This document shows, one piece after another, positions 3,262 to 42,051 of a stretch of DNA of 64,000 nucleotides (position 1 is the first letter of the stretch; each line of letters opens with the position of its first letter). The stretch is from Sphingomonas sp. IW22 (lineage in GTDB: Bacteria > Pseudomonadota > Alphaproteobacteria > Sphingomonadales > Sphingomonadaceae). The translations under genes and the position numbers were made by a program. The notes under the pieces were generated by a model. The model was not told the origin of the DNA. It saw only the letters and a list, made by a program, of their open reading frames with translations, and did no database searches. The stretch lies in the NCBI RefSeq assembly GCF_041321155.1, contig NZ_JBGGWB010000005.1, positions 124,001 to 188,000 on the forward strand, in the 5' to 3' direction.

Positions 3262-4287
3262 TCAGGGCAGCAGTAGCGACGCGTCGCCATAACTGTAGAA
3301 GCGATAGCCGTCGGCAATCGCATGGGCATAGGCCGCCTGCATCCGCTCCAGCCCCATCAGCGCCGATACCAGCATGAACAGCGTGGATCGCGGCAGGTGG
3401 AAGTTGGTCATCAGCCCGTCGATCCCGCGAAAGCGATAGCCCGGCGTGATAAAGATCGCGGTATCGCCCTCAAACGGCCGGATCACTTTGTCCTCACCCG
3501 CCGCGCTTTCGATCAGGCGCAGGCTGGTCGTGCCCACCGCGATGACCCGCCCGCCGCCTGCGCGCACGGCGTTCAGGCGGTCGGCGGTAGCGGCGTCGAT
3601 GCGGCCCCATTCGGCGTGCATCGCATGGTCGGCGGTGTCGTCGGCCTTGACCGGCAGGAAGGTGCCCGCGCCGACATGCAGCGTCAGCGTGGCATGGCCG
3701 ATCCCGGCAGCCTCCAGCGCGGCGAGCAGGCCAGGCGTGAAATGCAGCGCAGCCGTCGGCGCGGCGACGGCGCCGGCTTCCCGTGCGAACATCGTCTGAT
3801 AATCGTCGGCGTCGCGTTCGTCGGTCGGGCGCTTGGCGGCGATATAGGGCGGCAGCGGCATCCGGCCCGCACGCTCCAGCAACAGCTCGACCGGCTCGTC
3901 GCCCGCGAAGTTCAAGGCGAAGCTGCCGTCGGCAGCGCGGTCGCTGGCGGTCGCGGTTACGCCGCTGCCGAAATCAATGGCATCCCCTTCGCGCAGCCGC
4001 TTCGCGTTGCGGATAAAGGCGCGCCAGCGGCGCGGCCCTTCGCGCTTGTGCAGGGTGGCGCCGATCCGGGCATCCCCCCGTGTCCCTTCAAGCTGGGCCG
4101 GAATGACCCGCGTGTCGTTGAACACCAGGCAGTCGCCGGGTCGCAGGCACGTGGGCAGTTCGCTGACGATGGCGTCGCGTGTTTCCGCCGCGTCAAGCAG
4201 CAGCATCCGCGCGGCATCGCGCGGAGACGCGGGGCGCAGCGCGATGCGTTCGGGCGGCAGTTCGAAATCGAATAGGTCGACCTGCAC
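3262..4287 (-). CDS. queA: S-adenosylmethionine:tRNA ribosyltransferase-isomerase QueA
   Basis: QueA transfers and isomerises the ribosyl group of SAM to preQ1 in tRNA to give epoxyqueuosine. At 341 residues it is of normal length. It starts with the typical [19 protein letters not shown] and carries [56 protein letters not shown] and [19 protein letters not shown]. It is the last gene of the minus-strand run xseB-ispA-coaD-PPIase-queA and starts only 6 bases after the PPIase stop. Confidence 0.96.
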
Positions 4288-4293
4288 GTGCGC

Positions 4294-4983
4294 TTACTTC
4301 GTGCCCGGCAGCGTCACTTCCTCCTCACCCTCCGGCAGCGCGGCGGCGGGGGCGGGCGGCTGGTAGGCGGGCGGGTTGTCCGATGCGATCCAGGCATGGA
4401 CAATGCGCGCGGGGTTCGCCGGCGGCTCACCGCGCGGGATCGAATCGACATATTCCATGCCGCCGATCACACGTCCGAACACGCTGTAATCCTTGTCGAG
4501 GCTCAGGCGCGGGGTGAACATGATGAAAAACTGGCTGTTCGCGCTGTCCTCTGCCGCCTTTCGCTGTTCGGGCGTCGCGCCTTCCGGCGCACCCTGACGC
4601 GCGGCAGATACGGCACCGCGCACGTGCGGCAGATAGCTGAACTCGGCGGGCAGGTCGGGCAGGTCCGATCCGCCGCTGCCGTCGCCCTTGGGATCGCCCG
4701 ACTGGGCCATGAACCCTTCGATCACACGGTGGAAGACGATGCCGTCATAGAATTTCTGGCGGGTCAGCGTCTTGATCCGCTCGACCATCTTGGGTGCGAC
4801 GTCGGGACGCAACCAGATCGTCACGCGCCCGCCGGTCGACAGGTCGAGCAGCCACAGATTTTCCTTGTCGGTCGTCGGCGGCGGCGTCTTGCGTCCGGCG
4901 ACCGGGCTTTCGATGAGCTGAGCCGAGGCGGGCGATGCCAACCCCATGCCGACAAGAGCGAGAAGCGAGAGAAGAAAACGCAT
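4294..4983 (-). CDS. periplasmic cyclophilin-type peptidylprolyl isomerase
   Basis: This 229-residue prolyl isomerase has an N-terminal signal peptide (hydrophobic core LLSLLALVGMGLA, likely cleavage after SPASA near residue 21). The cyclophilin core includes FHRVIEGFMAQSGDPKGDGSGG with the catalytic Phe-His-Arg, then SQFFIMF and SVFGRVIGGMEYVDSI. An insertion, RQGAPEGATPEQRKAAED, precedes the SQFFIMF strand, as in several alphaproteobacterial PpiA homologues. The tail is Pro/Glu rich. It acts on folding of exported proteins and lies between coaD and queA in one run. Confidence 0.9.
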   Translation of the reverse strand: MRFLLSLLALVGMGLASPASAQLIESPVAGRKTPPPTTDKENLWLLDLSTGGRVTIWLRPDVAPKMVERIKTLTRQKFYDGIVFHRVIEGFMAQSGDPKGDGSGGSDLPDLPAEFSYLPHVRGAVSAARQGAPEGATPEQRKAAEDSANSQFFIMFTPRLSLDKDYSVFGRVIGGMEYVDSIPRGEPPANPARIVHAWIASDNPPAYQPPAPAAALPEGEEEVTLPGTK

Positions 4984-36907: not shown

Positions 36908-37048
36908 TCAGTCGAGCTTTTTTAGCAGTTCCAGAAGCTCATCAGGCACCTGTTCCTGAACGGCTTCGCGATAGACCGCGCGAAGTGCATCACCCACATT
37001 CTTTTCCTTATTCTGACCCTGCTTGGCCGGCTTCTTTTCCGAACGCAC
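36908..37048 (-). CDS. nepR: anti-sigma factor NepR
   Basis: NepR holds the sigma factor EcfG inactive until phosphorylated PhyR binds it instead. The core NVGDALRAVYREAVQEQVPD and ELLELLKKLD are the two helices of the family. I chose GTG 37048, which gives 46 residues and has AGGGGGAA directly upstream. The frame is open further up to 37306, but an EcfG-like promoter at 37164-37188 would place those codons outside the transcript. It is divergent from phyR, as in other sphingomonads. Confidence 0.88.
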   Translation of the reverse strand: MRSEKKPAKQGQNKEKNVGDALRAVYREAVQEQVPDELLELLKKLD

Positions 37049-37163
37049 GATTTCCCCCTGCTCCCCACGATGCCCTGGTCGGATCGCGGGTACGACAAAA
37101 TCCCGAGGTGCCTGAATCGCACCCCGATTCCCGATGCGCGCTAGCACATGTTCGGAGCGATGA

Positions 37164-37188
37164 AACCAAAGAGCGCCTCGTTGGTTCC
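37164..37188 (-). promoter_or_regulatory. EcfG-like promoter upstream of nepR
   Basis: On the minus strand GGAAC (37188-37184) is followed after 16 bases by GGTT (37167-37164), one base away from the EcfG consensus CGTT. It would let EcfG drive its own inhibitor. No GGAAC element was seen before phyR or ecfG. A weak housekeeping-like pair, TTCACC 37221-37226 and TACTAT 37243-37248, precedes phyR. The rest of the 256-base gap looks unoccupied. Confidence 0.4.
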
Positions 37189-37304
37189 GTGCGTCGAGGC
37201 ATTTTCGGGGGGAGGGGTCCTTCACCTGTCGCGCCATCGTACTACTATCGGGTTTCGCCGTCCCAAATTTGAACGGGGCGGCCGTGAAGGAGACAAGAAC
37301 TATC

Positions 37305-38111
37305 ATGTCGCTTGGCCAGCAGCTTGCCCCGCATCTTCCCTTCTTGCGCCGCTATGGCCGCGCACTGACGGGCAGCCAGACCGAGGGTGACCGTTATGTT
37401 CGTGCAACGCTGGAAGCGATCGTCGCCGCGCCGGAGGAATTTCCCCGCGACGTTGATCCGCGGCTGGGCCTGTATCGCACCTTCCAGGCTATCTGGGGTT
37501 CGACCCAGATCGACGAATTCGGTGGCGAGGATGTCGATCCGTCGAGCGATCAGGAAGCAATCGCGCGCGCCCGTCTGGCCCGCATCGCCCCGCTGTCGCG
37601 GCAGGCGCTGCTCCTGACCGCGATGGAGGGCTTTACCGTCGAGGATACGGGCTATCTGATCGACGTCGACACCGCCGAAGTCGATCGCCTGGTTGCCGAG
37701 GCGCTGGCCGAGATCGAGCAGCAGACCCGTGCGCGTGTACTGGTGATCGAGGATGAGCCGATCATCGCGATGGATATCGAGACGATCGTGCGCGACCTGG
37801 GCCATGAAGTGACCGGCGTTGCCGTGACGCGTGACGAAGCGGTCGCGCTTGCGATGGACGACCGTCCTGGCCTGGTGTTGGCGGACATCCAGCTCGCTGA
37901 CGACAGCTCGGGTATCGACGCAGTGAAGGACATTCTGGCACAGTTCAACGTGCCGGTGATCTTTATCACCGCGTTCCCCGAACGTCTGCTGACGGGCGAG
38001 CGGCCTGAGCCGACCTTCCTGATCACCAAGCCGTTCCAGCGTTCGACCGTCAAGGCGGCGATCAGCCAGGCGCTGTTCTTCGATCAGTCGACGGTTCCGG
38101 CCGCGGCCTGA
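37305..38111 (+). CDS. phyR: general stress response regulator PhyR
   Basis: PhyR is the anti-anti-sigma factor of the alphaproteobacterial general stress response. The 268-residue protein has an N-terminal sigma-like domain (about 1-140, LAPHLPFLRRYGRALTGSQ... GFTVEDTGYLIDVD) and a C-terminal receiver domain starting RVLVIEDEPIIAMDIE, with the phosphoacceptor Asp in LVLADIQLADDSSG and the Lys in LITKPFQ. Phosphorylation exposes the sigma-like part, which binds NepR. ATG 37305 is preceded by GAAGGAGA. Confidence 0.96.
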   Translation: MSLGQQLAPHLPFLRRYGRALTGSQTEGDRYVRATLEAIVAAPEEFPRDVDPRLGLYRTFQAIWGSTQIDEFGGEDVDPSSDQEAIARARLARIAPLSRQALLLTAMEGFTVEDTGYLIDVDTAEVDRLVAEALAEIEQQTRARVLVIEDEPIIAMDIETIVRDLGHEVTGVAVTRDEAVALAMDDRPGLVLADIQLADDSSGIDAVKDILAQFNVPVIFITAFPERLLTGERPEPTFLITKPFQRSTVKAAISQALFFDQSTVPAAA

Positions 38112-38171: not shown

Positions 38172-38309
38172 ATGGCTGATCCAAACGAGCAAGTGCATCT
38201 CGACACCGATCGCGCCCGCGGCGGTTCGACCCCCCATATGACGCGTTACATCCTGCCCATTTCATTGGTGCTGGTAATCGCGATCTTTGCCTATTTGGTA
38301 TTGGCCTGA
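38172..38309 (+). CDS. 45-residue single-pass membrane protein between phyR and ecfG
   Basis: The ATG at 38172 opens a 45-codon frame to TGA 38307-38309. The first half is polar (MADPNEQVHLDTDRARGGST) and the second is one helix, YILPISLVLVIAIFAYLVLA (about 26-45), reaching the last residue. GGGGGG lies about ten bases upstream. It sits 60 bases after phyR and 107 before ecfG, on their strand. The polar N-terminus and C-terminal anchor suggest a tail-anchored membrane peptide. No family is recognised. Confidence 0.6.
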   Translation: MADPNEQVHLDTDRARGGSTPHMTRYILPISLVLVIAIFAYLVLA

Positions 38310-38416: not shown

Positions 38417-39055
38417 ATGTCGCATATTGACGATCAGCAAGCGGACGCGTCCGAAACGGTTGTGCACGAGCATGTCTCGCTGTCCGACCCAGAGTTCAAG
38501 GCGCAGCTTACCCAGGTTATTCCGCACCTTCGCGCGTTTGGCCGCTCCCTGTCGGGCAGCCGCGACACCGCGGACGATCTGGTGCAGGAAACCCTGTTGA
38601 AGGCATGGGCGGCGCGCAAGCGCTTCCAGGCGGGCACCAACATGCGTGCGTGGACCTTCATCATTCTGCGCAACCTGTATCTCAGCCAGATGCGCCGCGC
38701 CCGGTTTAAGGGCGCGTGGGACGATCTGGTTGCCGATCGGCTGCTGGCGGCGCCTGCCAGTCAGGATCGTCATGTCGAATTGACCGACATGCAGCGCGCA
38801 TTGTTGCACCTGCCACGTCCGCAGCGCGAAGCACTGATCCTCGTTGGCGCCGGTGGCTTTGCCTATGAAGAGGCGGCCGAAATCTGTCAGGTCGCAGTCG
38901 GCACGATCAAGAGCCGCGTGGCGCGCGGTCGCGTGGCGCTGGAGAACCTGTTGAGCGAGGGCGATCTGCCCAGCCGTGCGTTGCACGACGCGGGCGACCG
39001 CAGCGCGCTCGACACGATCATGGGTGAGGTCGAAGAACTCAGCCGCTCGCGCTAG
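38417..39055 (+). CDS. ecfG: RNA polymerase sigma factor EcfG
   Basis: This 212-residue ECF sigma factor directs the general stress regulon. Region 2 is visible as PHLRAFGRSLSGSRDTADDL, VQETLLKAWAARKRF and MRAWTFIILRNLYLSQMRR; region 4 as LPRPQREALILVGAGGFAYEEAAEICQ with VGTIKSRVARGRVAL. The placement beside phyR and nepR supports EcfG over another ECF factor. ATG 38417 is chosen over GTG 38342 and ATG 38348 because MSHIDDQQADASE gives the normal short N-terminus. A strong terminator follows. Confidence 0.94.
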   Translation: MSHIDDQQADASETVVHEHVSLSDPEFKAQLTQVIPHLRAFGRSLSGSRDTADDLVQETLLKAWAARKRFQAGTNMRAWTFIILRNLYLSQMRRARFKGAWDDLVADRLLAAPASQDRHVELTDMQRALLHLPRPQREALILVGAGGFAYEEAAEICQVAVGTIKSRVARGRVALENLLSEGDLPSRALHDAGDRSALDTIMGEVEELSRSR

Positions 39056-39136: not shown

Positions 39137-39304
39137 TCAGGCGTACCGATCGAGCGCTTGTAGAAGTTTTGCCATATCCTGCGGCACTGCACGTTCACGG
39201 CGGTAGGCACCTTGTAGCGCAGAGGACAGGCAATCTGCTGCACCCGGCATCGCAACATGCAGGCTGCGAACTTCTTTGCGGGTATCAGGCGGTGCTTGTG
39301 ACAT
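39137..39304 (-). CDS. NepR-like small protein, convergent with ecfG
   Basis: ATG 39304 to TGA 39137 encodes 55 residues. The C-terminal half reads SALQGAYRRERAVPQDM then AKLLQALDRYA. Aligned by eye with the NepR of this window, ten of 25 positions are identical, with one two-residue gap, including AL, the Tyr, VP, LL and the final LD. This is the NepR pattern of two helices joined by a VP turn. The first 20 residues (MSQAPPDTRKEVRSLHVAMP) are unrelated. No clear Shine-Dalgarno is seen. It may be a second anti-sigma factor or a decayed copy. It is the only gene-like feature in the 320 bases between ecfG and glnE. Confidence 0.55.
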   Translation of the reverse strand: MSQAPPDTRKEVRSLHVAMPGAADCLSSALQGAYRRERAVPQDMAKLLQALDRYA

Positions 39305-39309
39305 ATGGT

Positions 39310-39324
39310 TGTAACGCGGTTACA
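39310..39324. promoter_or_regulatory. palindrome TGTAAC-GCG-GTTACA upstream of the NepR-like ORF and glnE
   Basis: A perfect 6+6 inverted repeat with a 3-base centre lies five bases upstream of the NepR-like ATG (39304) and about 50 bases before glnE. Such symmetric sites are typical operators of dimeric repressors. Which gene it controls, if any, is unknown. Confidence 0.4.
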
Positions 39325-39375
39325 GGCTGATCGTTGCTTGACAGGGAAAGGAAAGGTCCTTCCACCCTCGCGGGG

Positions 39376-42051
39376 ATGACAGCGACCATAAATCCTGAAC
39401 GTCTGGCCGACGCGCTGGATCGCGCCCGTGCCGAATCCCCCTTTCTGCGTCTGGCGGCCGAGCGGGAGCCGGCGATTGCCGATGACCTGCAAGGCGCGCT
39501 TGCCGATCCACTGACCCACGCCTTTGCCGGGCTGGACGAGCGACCTGTGGCGGAGCGGCTGCGGCTGGCGCGGTGGCGGCTGGCGCTGATGGTCGCCGTC
39601 GCCGACCTGTCGGGCGCTTGGCCGCTGGAGAAGGTGGTCGCCACGCTCAGCGATTTTGCCGACCGGGTGCTGCATCAGGCGATCGTAACCGCGATTCGGG
39701 AGCGCACGCCCGATGCCGAACCGCGCGGCTTCGTCGCCATCGCGCTGGGCAAGCAGGGTAGCCGTGAGCTGAACTATTCGTCGGACATCGACCCGATCCT
39801 GCTGTTCGACCCCGAAACCCTGCCAACCCGCCCGCGTGAGGAGCCGCAAGAGGCCGCGGTTCGTATCGGCAAGCGGGTGGTCGAGGTGCTTCAGGCCCGC
39901 GATGGCAATGGTTATGTTTTGCGCGTCGACCTGCGCCTGAGGCCGTCGAGCGAAGTCACGCCGATCGCCCTGCCGGTAGAGGCGGCGATCGGATATTATG
40001 AGTCGGCGGCGCTGCCGTGGGAGCGTGCCGCCTTCATCCGCGCGCGCGCCTGTGCTGGCGACGTGCCGTTGGGGGAACGGTTCCTGACCGCCATTCGCCC
40101 GTTCGTCTGGCGCCGCAGCCTCGATTTCGGGGCCATCGCCGAAATTCGCGGCATCACCACCCGCATTCGCGATCATCATTCGCGCGGACAGGCGTTCGGT
40201 CCCGGCTATGATCTGAAGCGCGGTCGCGGCGGCATTCGAGAAATCGAGTTCTTTGCCCAGATCCATCAGCTGATCCATGGCGGCCGCGACCCGGCATTGC
40301 GTGCGCCGGCGACACTTGATGCGCTGGCGGCGCTGGCGGCAGCGGGGCGGATCGACGCGGATGAAGCGGTCGCGCTGGGCGATGCGTATCGCCTGCTGCG
40401 CACGCTGGAGCACCGCGTGCAGATGATCGACGACCGGCAGACCCATGCCCTGCCCGACGGGGAGTCGCTGGACCGAGTCGCGCGGCTGCATGGCCTGAGC
40501 GACGGCGCGTCGCTGCTCGACCTTGCGCGTCCGCATGTCGAGCGGGTGGGAGCGATTTACGACGCGATCGAACCGGAAAGCAGCGACCGGCTGCCCGACG
40601 GTGAGGAGAGCCTGTCGACGCGGCTGGCGGGCGCGGGCTTTGGTGAACCCGAACAGGCAGTCCGGCGAATCGCCGAATGGCGGGCGGGCGCCTATCCTGC
40701 GCTCCGCAGCCCGGCGGCGCGGGAGGCGCTGGAAAAAACCTTGCCCGACCTGATCGTGGCACTTGGCGGGGCACCCGATCCCCATGGGGCGATGTTGCGG
40801 CTGGACCGCATCCTTGCGCGGCTGCCTAGTGCGATCAATTTCTTCCGCCTGATCGACGCACAGCCGCATCTGGCGCGATTGCTGGCGACGGTCCTCAGCC
40901 TTGCGCCGACACTGGCCGACGCGCTGGGACGCCGGGTGGAGATGCTGGACGGCCTGATCGACGCCAGCGCGCTGGAGCCGGTGGGCGACGTGGCTGAACT
41001 GGCTGCCGCGATGTGCGCGGGGCGGCTAGATTACGAACAGCGGCTCGACCATGTCCGCCGCGTCGTCGCCGAAACGCGATTTGCACTGGGCGTACAGATC
41101 GTCGCGGGCGCGCGCGATCCGCTGGAGGTCGCGGGCGGCTATGCCCGGCTTGCCGAAGCCGCGATCGAAACGCTGGCTGCTGCCACGGTCGCGGAATTTG
41201 AACGCGCGCATGGGCGTGTGGCGAACAGCGAATTGCTGATCCTCGCGCTTGGGCGGCTGGGCGGGGGCAAGCTGACCCATGCCAGCGATCTGGATCTCGT
41301 CTATCTCTTCACCGGCGACCACAGTGCCGAAAGCGACGGCAAGCGGCCCTTGGGGGCGGTTCATTACTATAACCGCCTGGCGCAACGGGTGACGGCGGCG
41401 CTGTCGGTGGCGACGGCATCCGGCCCACTTTATCCGGTTGATACGCGGCTGCGCCCGTCGGGTAATCAGGGGCCGCTGGTGGTCTCGCTCGAAGGGTTTC
41501 GGCGCTATCAGCGGGAAAGCGCCTGGACGTGGGAGCATATGGCGCTGACCCGCGCCCGCCCGGTTTTCGGCTCAGACGAAGCACGTCAAAAGGTTCAGGC
41601 GATCATTGGCGAGGTGCTGGCCGGTGCCCGTCCCGACCGCGATGTCGCGGCCGACGCGCGAACGATGCGGGATGAGATGCGGACGCACAAGCCCGCGCAA
41701 GGGCCGCTGGATGCCAAGCTGCTCGACGGCGGTCTGGTCGATCTGGAATTCGCGGTGCATGTGCGGCAGCTGGTCCATCGCAGCGGCTTCAACCCCGATC
41801 TGGCGACGGCGATCGATGCGTTGGCGGCGGCGGGGTTGATCGATGCCGAGTTGCGGGCGGCACATGACATGCTGACGCGGCTGATCGTAACGATGCGGCT
41901 GGTCGCGCCCGACGCGCAGGAACCGCCGCCCCCGACCAAGGCCCTGATTGCACAGGCGCTGGATCTGCCGGACTGGGATGCGGTGACCGCCACGCTGGAC
42001 GCCACCCGCGAACGGGTGTGCGCGGCGTGGATGGCAGCGGCAAAGGAGTGA
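39376..42051 (+). CDS. glnE: bifunctional [glutamine synthetase] adenylyltransferase/deadenylylase
   Basis: GlnE adenylylates or deadenylylates glutamine synthetase in response to nitrogen through PII. The 891-residue protein holds two nucleotidyltransferase domains: ALGKQGSRELNYSSDIDPILLF near residues 120-145 and ALGRLGGGKLTHASDLDLVYLF near residues 625-645, separated by helical regions. The second carries the canonical GG.LT..SDLD motif. ATG 39376 is chosen because the in-frame ATG at 39334 adds only unrelated residues. The bcp gene starts three bases after its stop. Confidence 0.95.
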   Translation: MTATINPERLADALDRARAESPFLRLAAEREPAIADDLQGALADPLTHAFAGLDERPVAERLRLARWRLALMVAVADLSGAWPLEKVVATLSDFADRVLHQAIVTAIRERTPDAEPRGFVAIALGKQGSRELNYSSDIDPILLFDPETLPTRPREEPQEAAVRIGKRVVEVLQARDGNGYVLRVDLRLRPSSEVTPIALPVEAAIGYYESAALPWERAAFIRARACAGDVPLGERFLTAIRPFVWRRSLDFGAIAEIRGITTRIRDHHSRGQAFGPGYDLKRGRGGIREIEFFAQIHQLIHGGRDPALRAPATLDALAALAAAGRIDADEAVALGDAYRLLRTLEHRVQMIDDRQTHALPDGESLDRVARLHGLSDGASLLDLARPHVERVGAIYDAIEPESSDRLPDGEESLSTRLAGAGFGEPEQAVRRIAEWRAGAYPALRSPAAREALEKTLPDLIVALGGAPDPHGAMLRLDRILARLPSAINFFRLIDAQPHLARLLATVLSLAPTLADALGRRVEMLDGLIDASALEPVGDVAELAAAMCAGRLDYEQRLDHVRRVVAETRFALGVQIVAGARDPLEVAGGYARLAEAAIETLAAATVAEFERAHGRVANSELLILALGRLGGGKLTHASDLDLVYLFTGDHSAESDGKRPLGAVHYYNRLAQRVTAALSVATASGPLYPVDTRLRPSGNQGPLVVSLEGFRRYQRESAWTWEHMALTRARPVFGSDEARQKVQAIIGEVLAGARPDRDVAADARTMRDEMRTHKPAQGPLDAKLLDGGLVDLEFAVHVRQLVHRSGFNPDLATAIDALAAAGLIDAELRAAHDMLTRLIVTMRLVAPDAQEPPPPTKALIAQALDLPDWDAVTATLDATRERVCAAWMAAAKE

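Follow-up and report, generated by a model that had tools for sequence, protein, structure and literature searches.

The closest described system is that of Sphingomonas melonis Fr1 (PMC6599016, as far as the accessible part of that paper goes). In this strain gene #1448, located beside ecfG (#1447), encodes NepR2, a member of the EcfG regulon that acts negatively on the response; its stress-induced rise was slightly under the cutoff of the authors. Fr1 NepR2 bound to PhyR in co-immunoprecipitation. Residues L31 and F35 (the latter corresponding to Tyr in NepR) are needed for its function, and the replacement of R32 with Ala is tolerated. On co-expression, NepR2 and EcfG proved unstable, whereas NepR with EcfG did not; according to the same part of the paper, a NepR2-EcfG complex was not obtained and is probably not formed, and the authors read NepR2 as a PhyR antagonist. 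A similar antagonist-like role has also been proposed for a Methylobacterium paralog (PMC4814048, accessible part).

The locus analyzed here lies in a 64,000-nt stretch of the Sphingomonas sp. IW22 genome (the window) and, according to family matches, is a general stress response locus. It comprises nepR (nepR1; 36908..37306, minus strand, ORF as listed with a provisional start), encoding the anti-sigma factor (PF18557, 36.8 bits, and a match to 2lfw_B); phyR (37305..38111, plus strand), encoding the response regulator with a sigma-like domain, the expected partner of NepR2; a gene for 45 amino acids with one hydrophobic stretch (38172..38309, plus strand), in the position of Fr1 #1446; and ecfG (38417..39055, plus strand), encoding the general stress response sigma factor and recognized by its ORF and sigma-70 domains. 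The ORF of interest, nepR2 (39137..39304, minus strand, 55 codons and a stop codon; delimited by the ORF list, the alignment of relatives and profile matches), is tail-to-tail with ecfG and head-to-head with glnE (39376..42051, plus strand; NCBIfam NF010706, 752 bits with the cut-off 724), from which it is separated by 71 bases. The start codons of ecfG and glnE were picked by eye. Hence nepR2 lies between ecfG and glnE on the opposite strand, as a Sphingomonas NepR2 should. The earlier note, made from the letters of this DNA, described a 55-codon minus-strand ORF convergent with ecfG and carrying the pattern AL...Y, VP, LL..LD; both the ORF, at exactly these coordinates, and the pattern were confirmed, and, as the note had said, no Shine-Dalgarno sequence was seen before the ATG when the sequence was read by eye.

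The link to Fr1 was made with a 47-residue fragment of Fr1 NepR from 2lfw, searched in 295 genomes of the genus. All 47 residues were matched in two genomes of the 295, G379 and G259. In G379, the ORF between ecfG and glnE carries L31, R32, F35 and M46, as numbered in the accessible part of PMC6599016, and the NepR2 ORF of G259 has L31, R32 and F35, but V46; both belong to the NepR2 family and have the same promoter (see below). The ORF studied here shares 15 of 54 aligned residues with the Fr1-like NepR2 of G379 (30% identity in a second alignment), and its L30 and Y34 align with L31 and F35 of that protein. Judged by its sequence, it is an ortholog of the known NepR2 of S. melonis Fr1 (PMC6599016, accessible part). 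The identity of the gene as NepR2 is thus already known, and, as far as the literature searched shows, the additions of the present analysis are the genus-wide conservation, the linkage to glnE, the profile, and the promoter-to-ATG layout.

Relation to NepR itself is visible at one level of comparison. The Pfam NepR model (PF18557, cut-off 25.7 bits) does not match the ORF even at the E-value limit of 10, and the NCBIfam scan gave nothing useful; PAC4, a sub-threshold match in these scans (E 0.11), was rejected. PF18557 has a single match (E <= 0.01) in each of 36 out of 37 same-genus genomes, and the one in the own genome is nepR. Similarly, a profile of NepR proteins from 40 relatives gives the ORF E 0.5, the second rank among 1228 ORFs, with 2 of 1000 shuffles of the ORF scoring higher. 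When families are compared, the picture is different. The best match of the NepR2 profile among 177,635 PDB sequences is Fr1 NepR (2lfw_B, E 5e-4), its second match in the own genome is nepR (E 0.001), and the hhalign comparison of the NepR2 and NepR families yields 97.1% and a score of 51.5, the best of 200 column shuffles being 16.4. In this family-to-family alignment the ORF is identical to the local NepR at 32% of 31 columns, a value similar to the 10 of 25 positions counted by eye in the earlier note, and a gap of two residues falls between the Tyr in helix 1 and the VP turn. The AlphaFold model of the ORF, of modest confidence (mean pLDDT 71.2, pTM 0.35), has helices at 22-37 and 42-54. 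So of the NepR profile check suggested in the note, the single ORF fails with both the Pfam model and the local NepR profile, while the family profile shows the homology; the description of the ORF as NepR-like holds for the two-helix core, and at the sequence level homology to NepR is seen only between the families.

The NepR2 profile, built without the ORF, places it first (E 5e-15, 50.9 bits) among the 1228 ORFs that the window contains at a minimum length of 25 codons, followed by nepR (E 2e-5); shuffling the ORF 1000 times gives no more than 9.0 bits. With two of the nearest relatives, L004 and L157, also left out of the profile, the E-value of the ORF is 9e-15. A search with the single protein in the own genome and 60 relatives gave matches with E <= 1, mostly weak, in 40 of the 61 genomes. 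Thirty places (the own one included) were fetched from this search; 23 immediately precede glnE and are on the other strand, and at 20 of these ecfG is within the fetched stretch of ~3 kb. The seven places lying elsewhere than at glnE are likely chance matches. Without L017 (no ORF) and L014 (start unclear), the 23 glnE places form an alignment of 21 rows, including the own ORF, in which D24, L30 and L48 (ORF numbering) are invariant. In a search of 197 genomes of the order with a profile of these rows, 17 same-genus genomes are listed with matches at E <= 1.2e-9; the profile itself includes sequences from some of them (own genome, G008, G010), and the listing leaves out 60 genomes that had no match.

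A larger sample, the best 80 of at least 573 loci found with the EcfG protein (hereafter, named loci; mostly Sphingomonas, also Stakelama and Hephaestia), has a minus-strand ORF after ecfG marked by the NepR2 profile in 70 cases, 64 of them strong (E <= 3e-7) and six weak (6e-4 to ~0.1). A second alignment combines 60 of these 70 loci (promoter-to-ATG spacing 8-10, E < 1e-6) with the own ORF and seven earlier loci. Conservation of the ORF beside ecfG in relatives, which the earlier note had proposed as a check, is borne out by the strong match in 64 of the 80 named loci. Moreover, dN/dS is below 1 in all nine close pairs (0.10-0.65, seven under 0.3; the pairs, which are not all independent, were chosen at 74-99.5% DNA identity with a minimum of 48 codons). 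Since strong matches follow ecfG in 64 of 80 relatives and dN/dS is below 1 in nine pairs of nine, these sequence comparisons make decay of nepR2 unlikely. A chance ORF or a decaying nepR copy in this strain would agree with the missing Shine-Dalgarno sequence and with the lack of a Pfam NepR or NCBIfam match, but the frame is intact, the residues and the promoter are conserved, the family score is high, and dN/dS in the relatives is under 1, and we consider such an origin highly improbable. The suggestion that the missing Shine-Dalgarno sequence leaves room for decay is contradicted by the conservation, the dN/dS values and the promoter layout; according to the sequence evidence, nepR2 is a real gene.

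Where ecfG and glnE are apart, nepR2 stays with glnE and not with ecfG, as is seen from the strong NepR2 matches beside glnE and away from ecfG in L103, L124 and L125 (E <= 2e-17) and from a weak one beside glnE in L154 (E 0.076). In the deposited genome of S. melonis AS2.3, nepR2 also adjoins glnE rather than ecfG, and therefore AS2.3 differs from Fr1. Thus, the placement beside ecfG given in the earlier note is true for this genome, while in the genomes with ecfG and glnE apart the gene is found at glnE. Among the other named loci without a marked ORF after ecfG, L115 and L117 gave no nepR2 and seemingly lack the gene. In L163, L164 and L170 a promoter of similar type precedes a diverged ORF, L163 and L170 having spacings of 10 and 11 and L164 a GTG start.

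Several observations concern individual records. Diverged NepR2-like ORFs with a longer inter-helix stretch are present in L133, L143, L163, L164, L166 and L170, identified via the promoter or by profile matches that were very weak; they have an R-R-hydrophobic start (e.g. RRIIRV in L143, L163 and L170). In L147 (a record titled Sphingomicrobium metagenome assembly), a 29-codon nepR2-like stub lies behind a promoter-like match at ~4127-4441, which may reflect decay or an assembly error. The record of L142, titled Bacillus sp. 2B10, contains Sphingomonas-type ecfG, nepR2 and glnE, and is likely mislabelled or contaminated.

Upstream of nepR2, on the minus strand, there is an EcfG-type promoter, GCAAC-N16-CGTT-N8-ATG (pattern match G000:C5:163302-163337:-), conserved in relatives. 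Its -35 box GCAAC (39333..39337) is 16 bases before the -10 box CGTT (39313..39316), which in turn ends 8 bases before the ATG. According to the accessible part of PMC7083833, Sphingopyxis EcfG has the consensus GGAAC-N16-CGTT; its two commonest -35 boxes are GGAAC and GCAAC, and the choice between these two seemingly has no effect on transcription in vitro. As far as the DNA sequence goes, the promoter pattern in this genome is consistent with EcfG-dependent expression of nepR2.

The pattern G[CAG]AAC-N16-NGTT-N8/9-ATG occurs 88 times across the 80 named loci, whereas base shuffling of all 80 leaves 0.5 matches (mean of 10 rounds). The exact pattern, mostly in the form G[CA]AAC-N16-CGTT, stands at nepR2 in 61 of the 70 loci that have a nepR2 call. 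This count is independent of the start codon choice; a separate per-locus listing chose starts with the help of the promoter match. Of the nine nepR2 loci without the exact pattern, five have a near form (a spacer of 17 or a GTG start) and L143 has spacing 10, spacings of 10 or 11 being seen in some diverged relatives (L143, L163, L170); in L168 the exact promoter pattern is further upstream of nepR2. The other 27 occurrences are elsewhere, 23 of them, by position, in the nepR-phyR gap (~2000-2290 of the named loci), where the EcfG-like pattern recurs. In L129 and L141 it is present in this gap on both strands (GGAAC...GTTTC and its complement), and could serve nepR and phyR at once.

The most frequent -35 box at nepR2 is GCAAC (40 of 67 loci with a promoter match), followed by GAAAC (27), while GGAAC is not found in these loci. 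Overlap of the box with a TTGACA-like glnE box, seen in a few loci, was considered as the reason for this preference and dropped, since GTCAA is present within 12 bases before the nepR2 -35 box in only 10 of 60 loci.

In ECF promoters, transcription usually begins at a distance from the -10 box that would place the start of the nepR2 message at or next to the A of its ATG. A Shine-Dalgarno-like word is found at nepR2 in 6 of 60 loci. Of 59 nepR2 ATGs, 48 are preceded by C and 9 by T (57 of 59 together), compared with 32% and 11% (43% together) for all ATGs of the named loci. Leaderless transcripts are known from S. meliloti, with 171 mapped, all beginning with AUG (PMC3616915, accessible part). 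Since in 61 of 70 loci 8-9 bases separate the EcfG-type promoter from the ATG, the nepR2 mRNA is probably leaderless, and the same position of the promoter would explain the missing Shine-Dalgarno sequence. No report of leaderless nepR2 was found in the open-licence literature searched.

That the EcfG regulon in general has the leaderless layout is not supported by a test in the own genome: the pattern G[GCA]AAC-N16-CGTT-N0-30-ATG has 22 matches there and the reversed-pattern control has 9, with spacing 8 in two matches (nepR2 included) and spacing 9 in none.

The same promoter-to-ATG layout as that of nepR2 precedes the 45-aa gene before ecfG (GGAGC-N16-GGTT-N8-ATG). When the 80 named loci were searched, this small gene was found in 57, of which 47 had the 8-9 spacing; a search for that spacing alone found the gene in 55 of the 80, its ATG being preceded by C or T in 47 loci and by G in 8. 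No description of this shared layout turned up in the open-licence literature searched. In Fr1, gene #1446, whose number places it between those of phyR and ecfG, is listed among the top EcfG-regulated genes with log2 ratio -6.2 (PMC6599016, accessible part). Alternatively, nepR2 could be translated from a longer leader without a Shine-Dalgarno sequence or from an upstream start, the spacing being a by-product of the packing of two divergent promoters. This would fit the nepR2-glnE gap of only 71 bases in this genome, the spacing of 8 or 9 rather than a single value, and the GTG starts at that place in L121, L122 and L133. However, the 8-9 spacing is kept in eight loci where the gap to glnE exceeds 100 bases (103 to 156), 47 of 57 loci show it at the small gene preceding ecfG as well, and C or T before the A fits an initiator; hence, we rate translation from a longer leader as unlikely. 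Extending the leaderless reading, one may tentatively suggest, at somewhat less than even chances, that nepR2 and the small gene before ecfG both give leaderless EcfG transcripts across Sphingomonas, and that the layout is under selection for Shine-Dalgarno-independent translation of the feedback arm, possibly favoured under stress.

In Fr1, EcfG-dependence, the negative effect, PhyR binding, and the need for Leu and Phe have been shown by others (PMC6599016, accessible part), while orthology, conservation and promoter layout are computed here; by analogy, this strain is expected to behave like Fr1. In the proposed mechanism, stress would free EcfG, which would then transcribe nepR2, using the divergent promoter that precedes glnE. 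Transcription would start at or next to the ATG, giving a leaderless message. The product, apparently a shortened NepR of two helices with a linker two residues shorter than that of the local NepR, would bind PhyR via the residues that NepR uses (L30 and Y34 here) and might compete with NepR for PhyR, so that NepR could retake EcfG and the response would be damped. From the Fr1 data, NepR2 of this strain is predicted to bind PhyR and to lower the stress response. Taken as a whole, the explanation of the ORF as nepR2, providing EcfG-driven leaderless negative feedback via PhyR binding, appears to us a likely one.

A further control layer of the stress response, foreseen in the earlier note, is borne out by the family link to NepR and by Fr1 NepR2, while a second anti-sigma protein is not supported as worded there, as the Fr1 ortholog binds PhyR and the complex with EcfG was not obtained (PMC6599016, accessible part). 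NepR2 could still be a true second anti-sigma factor holding EcfG, like both NepR proteins of Sinorhizobium meliloti: its family is homologous to NepR over the two helices, and both S. meliloti paralogs bind the sigma factor (PMC4814048, accessible part). On the other hand, Fr1 NepR2 with EcfG was unstable and PhyR was bound (indirect data; PMC6599016, accessible part), two PhyR-binding Methylobacterium paralogs bound no EcfG in the two-hybrid tests described in the accessible part of PMC4814048, and the inter-helix linker is shorter in NepR2, which may be relevant here. Direct holding of EcfG thus seems to us improbable, and action via PhyR is the preferred reading.

With these data NepR2 gains a genus-wide family and a profile that finds its genes where the Pfam NepR model does not, and the absent ribosome-binding site of nepR2 gains a testable reason. 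If leaderless translation is true, negative feedback of the stress response would be wired through a distinct translation mode.

In comparison with known systems, NepR2 has in common with NepR (PF18557; 2lfw) the two-helix core and the L/Y/VP/LL pattern, while its linker is two residues shorter, the Pfam model does not detect it, and it has its own conserved stretch before helix 1 (V..PR..D), absent from the NepR alignment. MexAM1_META2p0735 of Methylobacterium extorquens (PMC4814048, accessible part), likened by description only, is a NepR paralog with an EcfG-type promoter, PhyR binding and a negative effect. The nepR2 gene of Sphingopyxis granuli TFA (accessible parts of PMC7083833 and PMC11165598) also encodes a NepR-like protein, has an EcfG-type promoter and provides negative feedback. 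However, it is located upstream of ecfG1, overlapping it in one operon (PMC7083833), so that, to judge from its location, two distinct genes bear this name. The closest system is NepR2 of S. melonis Fr1 (PMC6599016, accessible part), which has the same place, family, key Leu and aromatic residue, and EcfG-type promoter as the ORF described here. The latter differs from Fr1 NepR2 by Y34 in place of F35 and Q31 in place of R32, and from the Fr1-like protein of G379 by a linker one residue longer.
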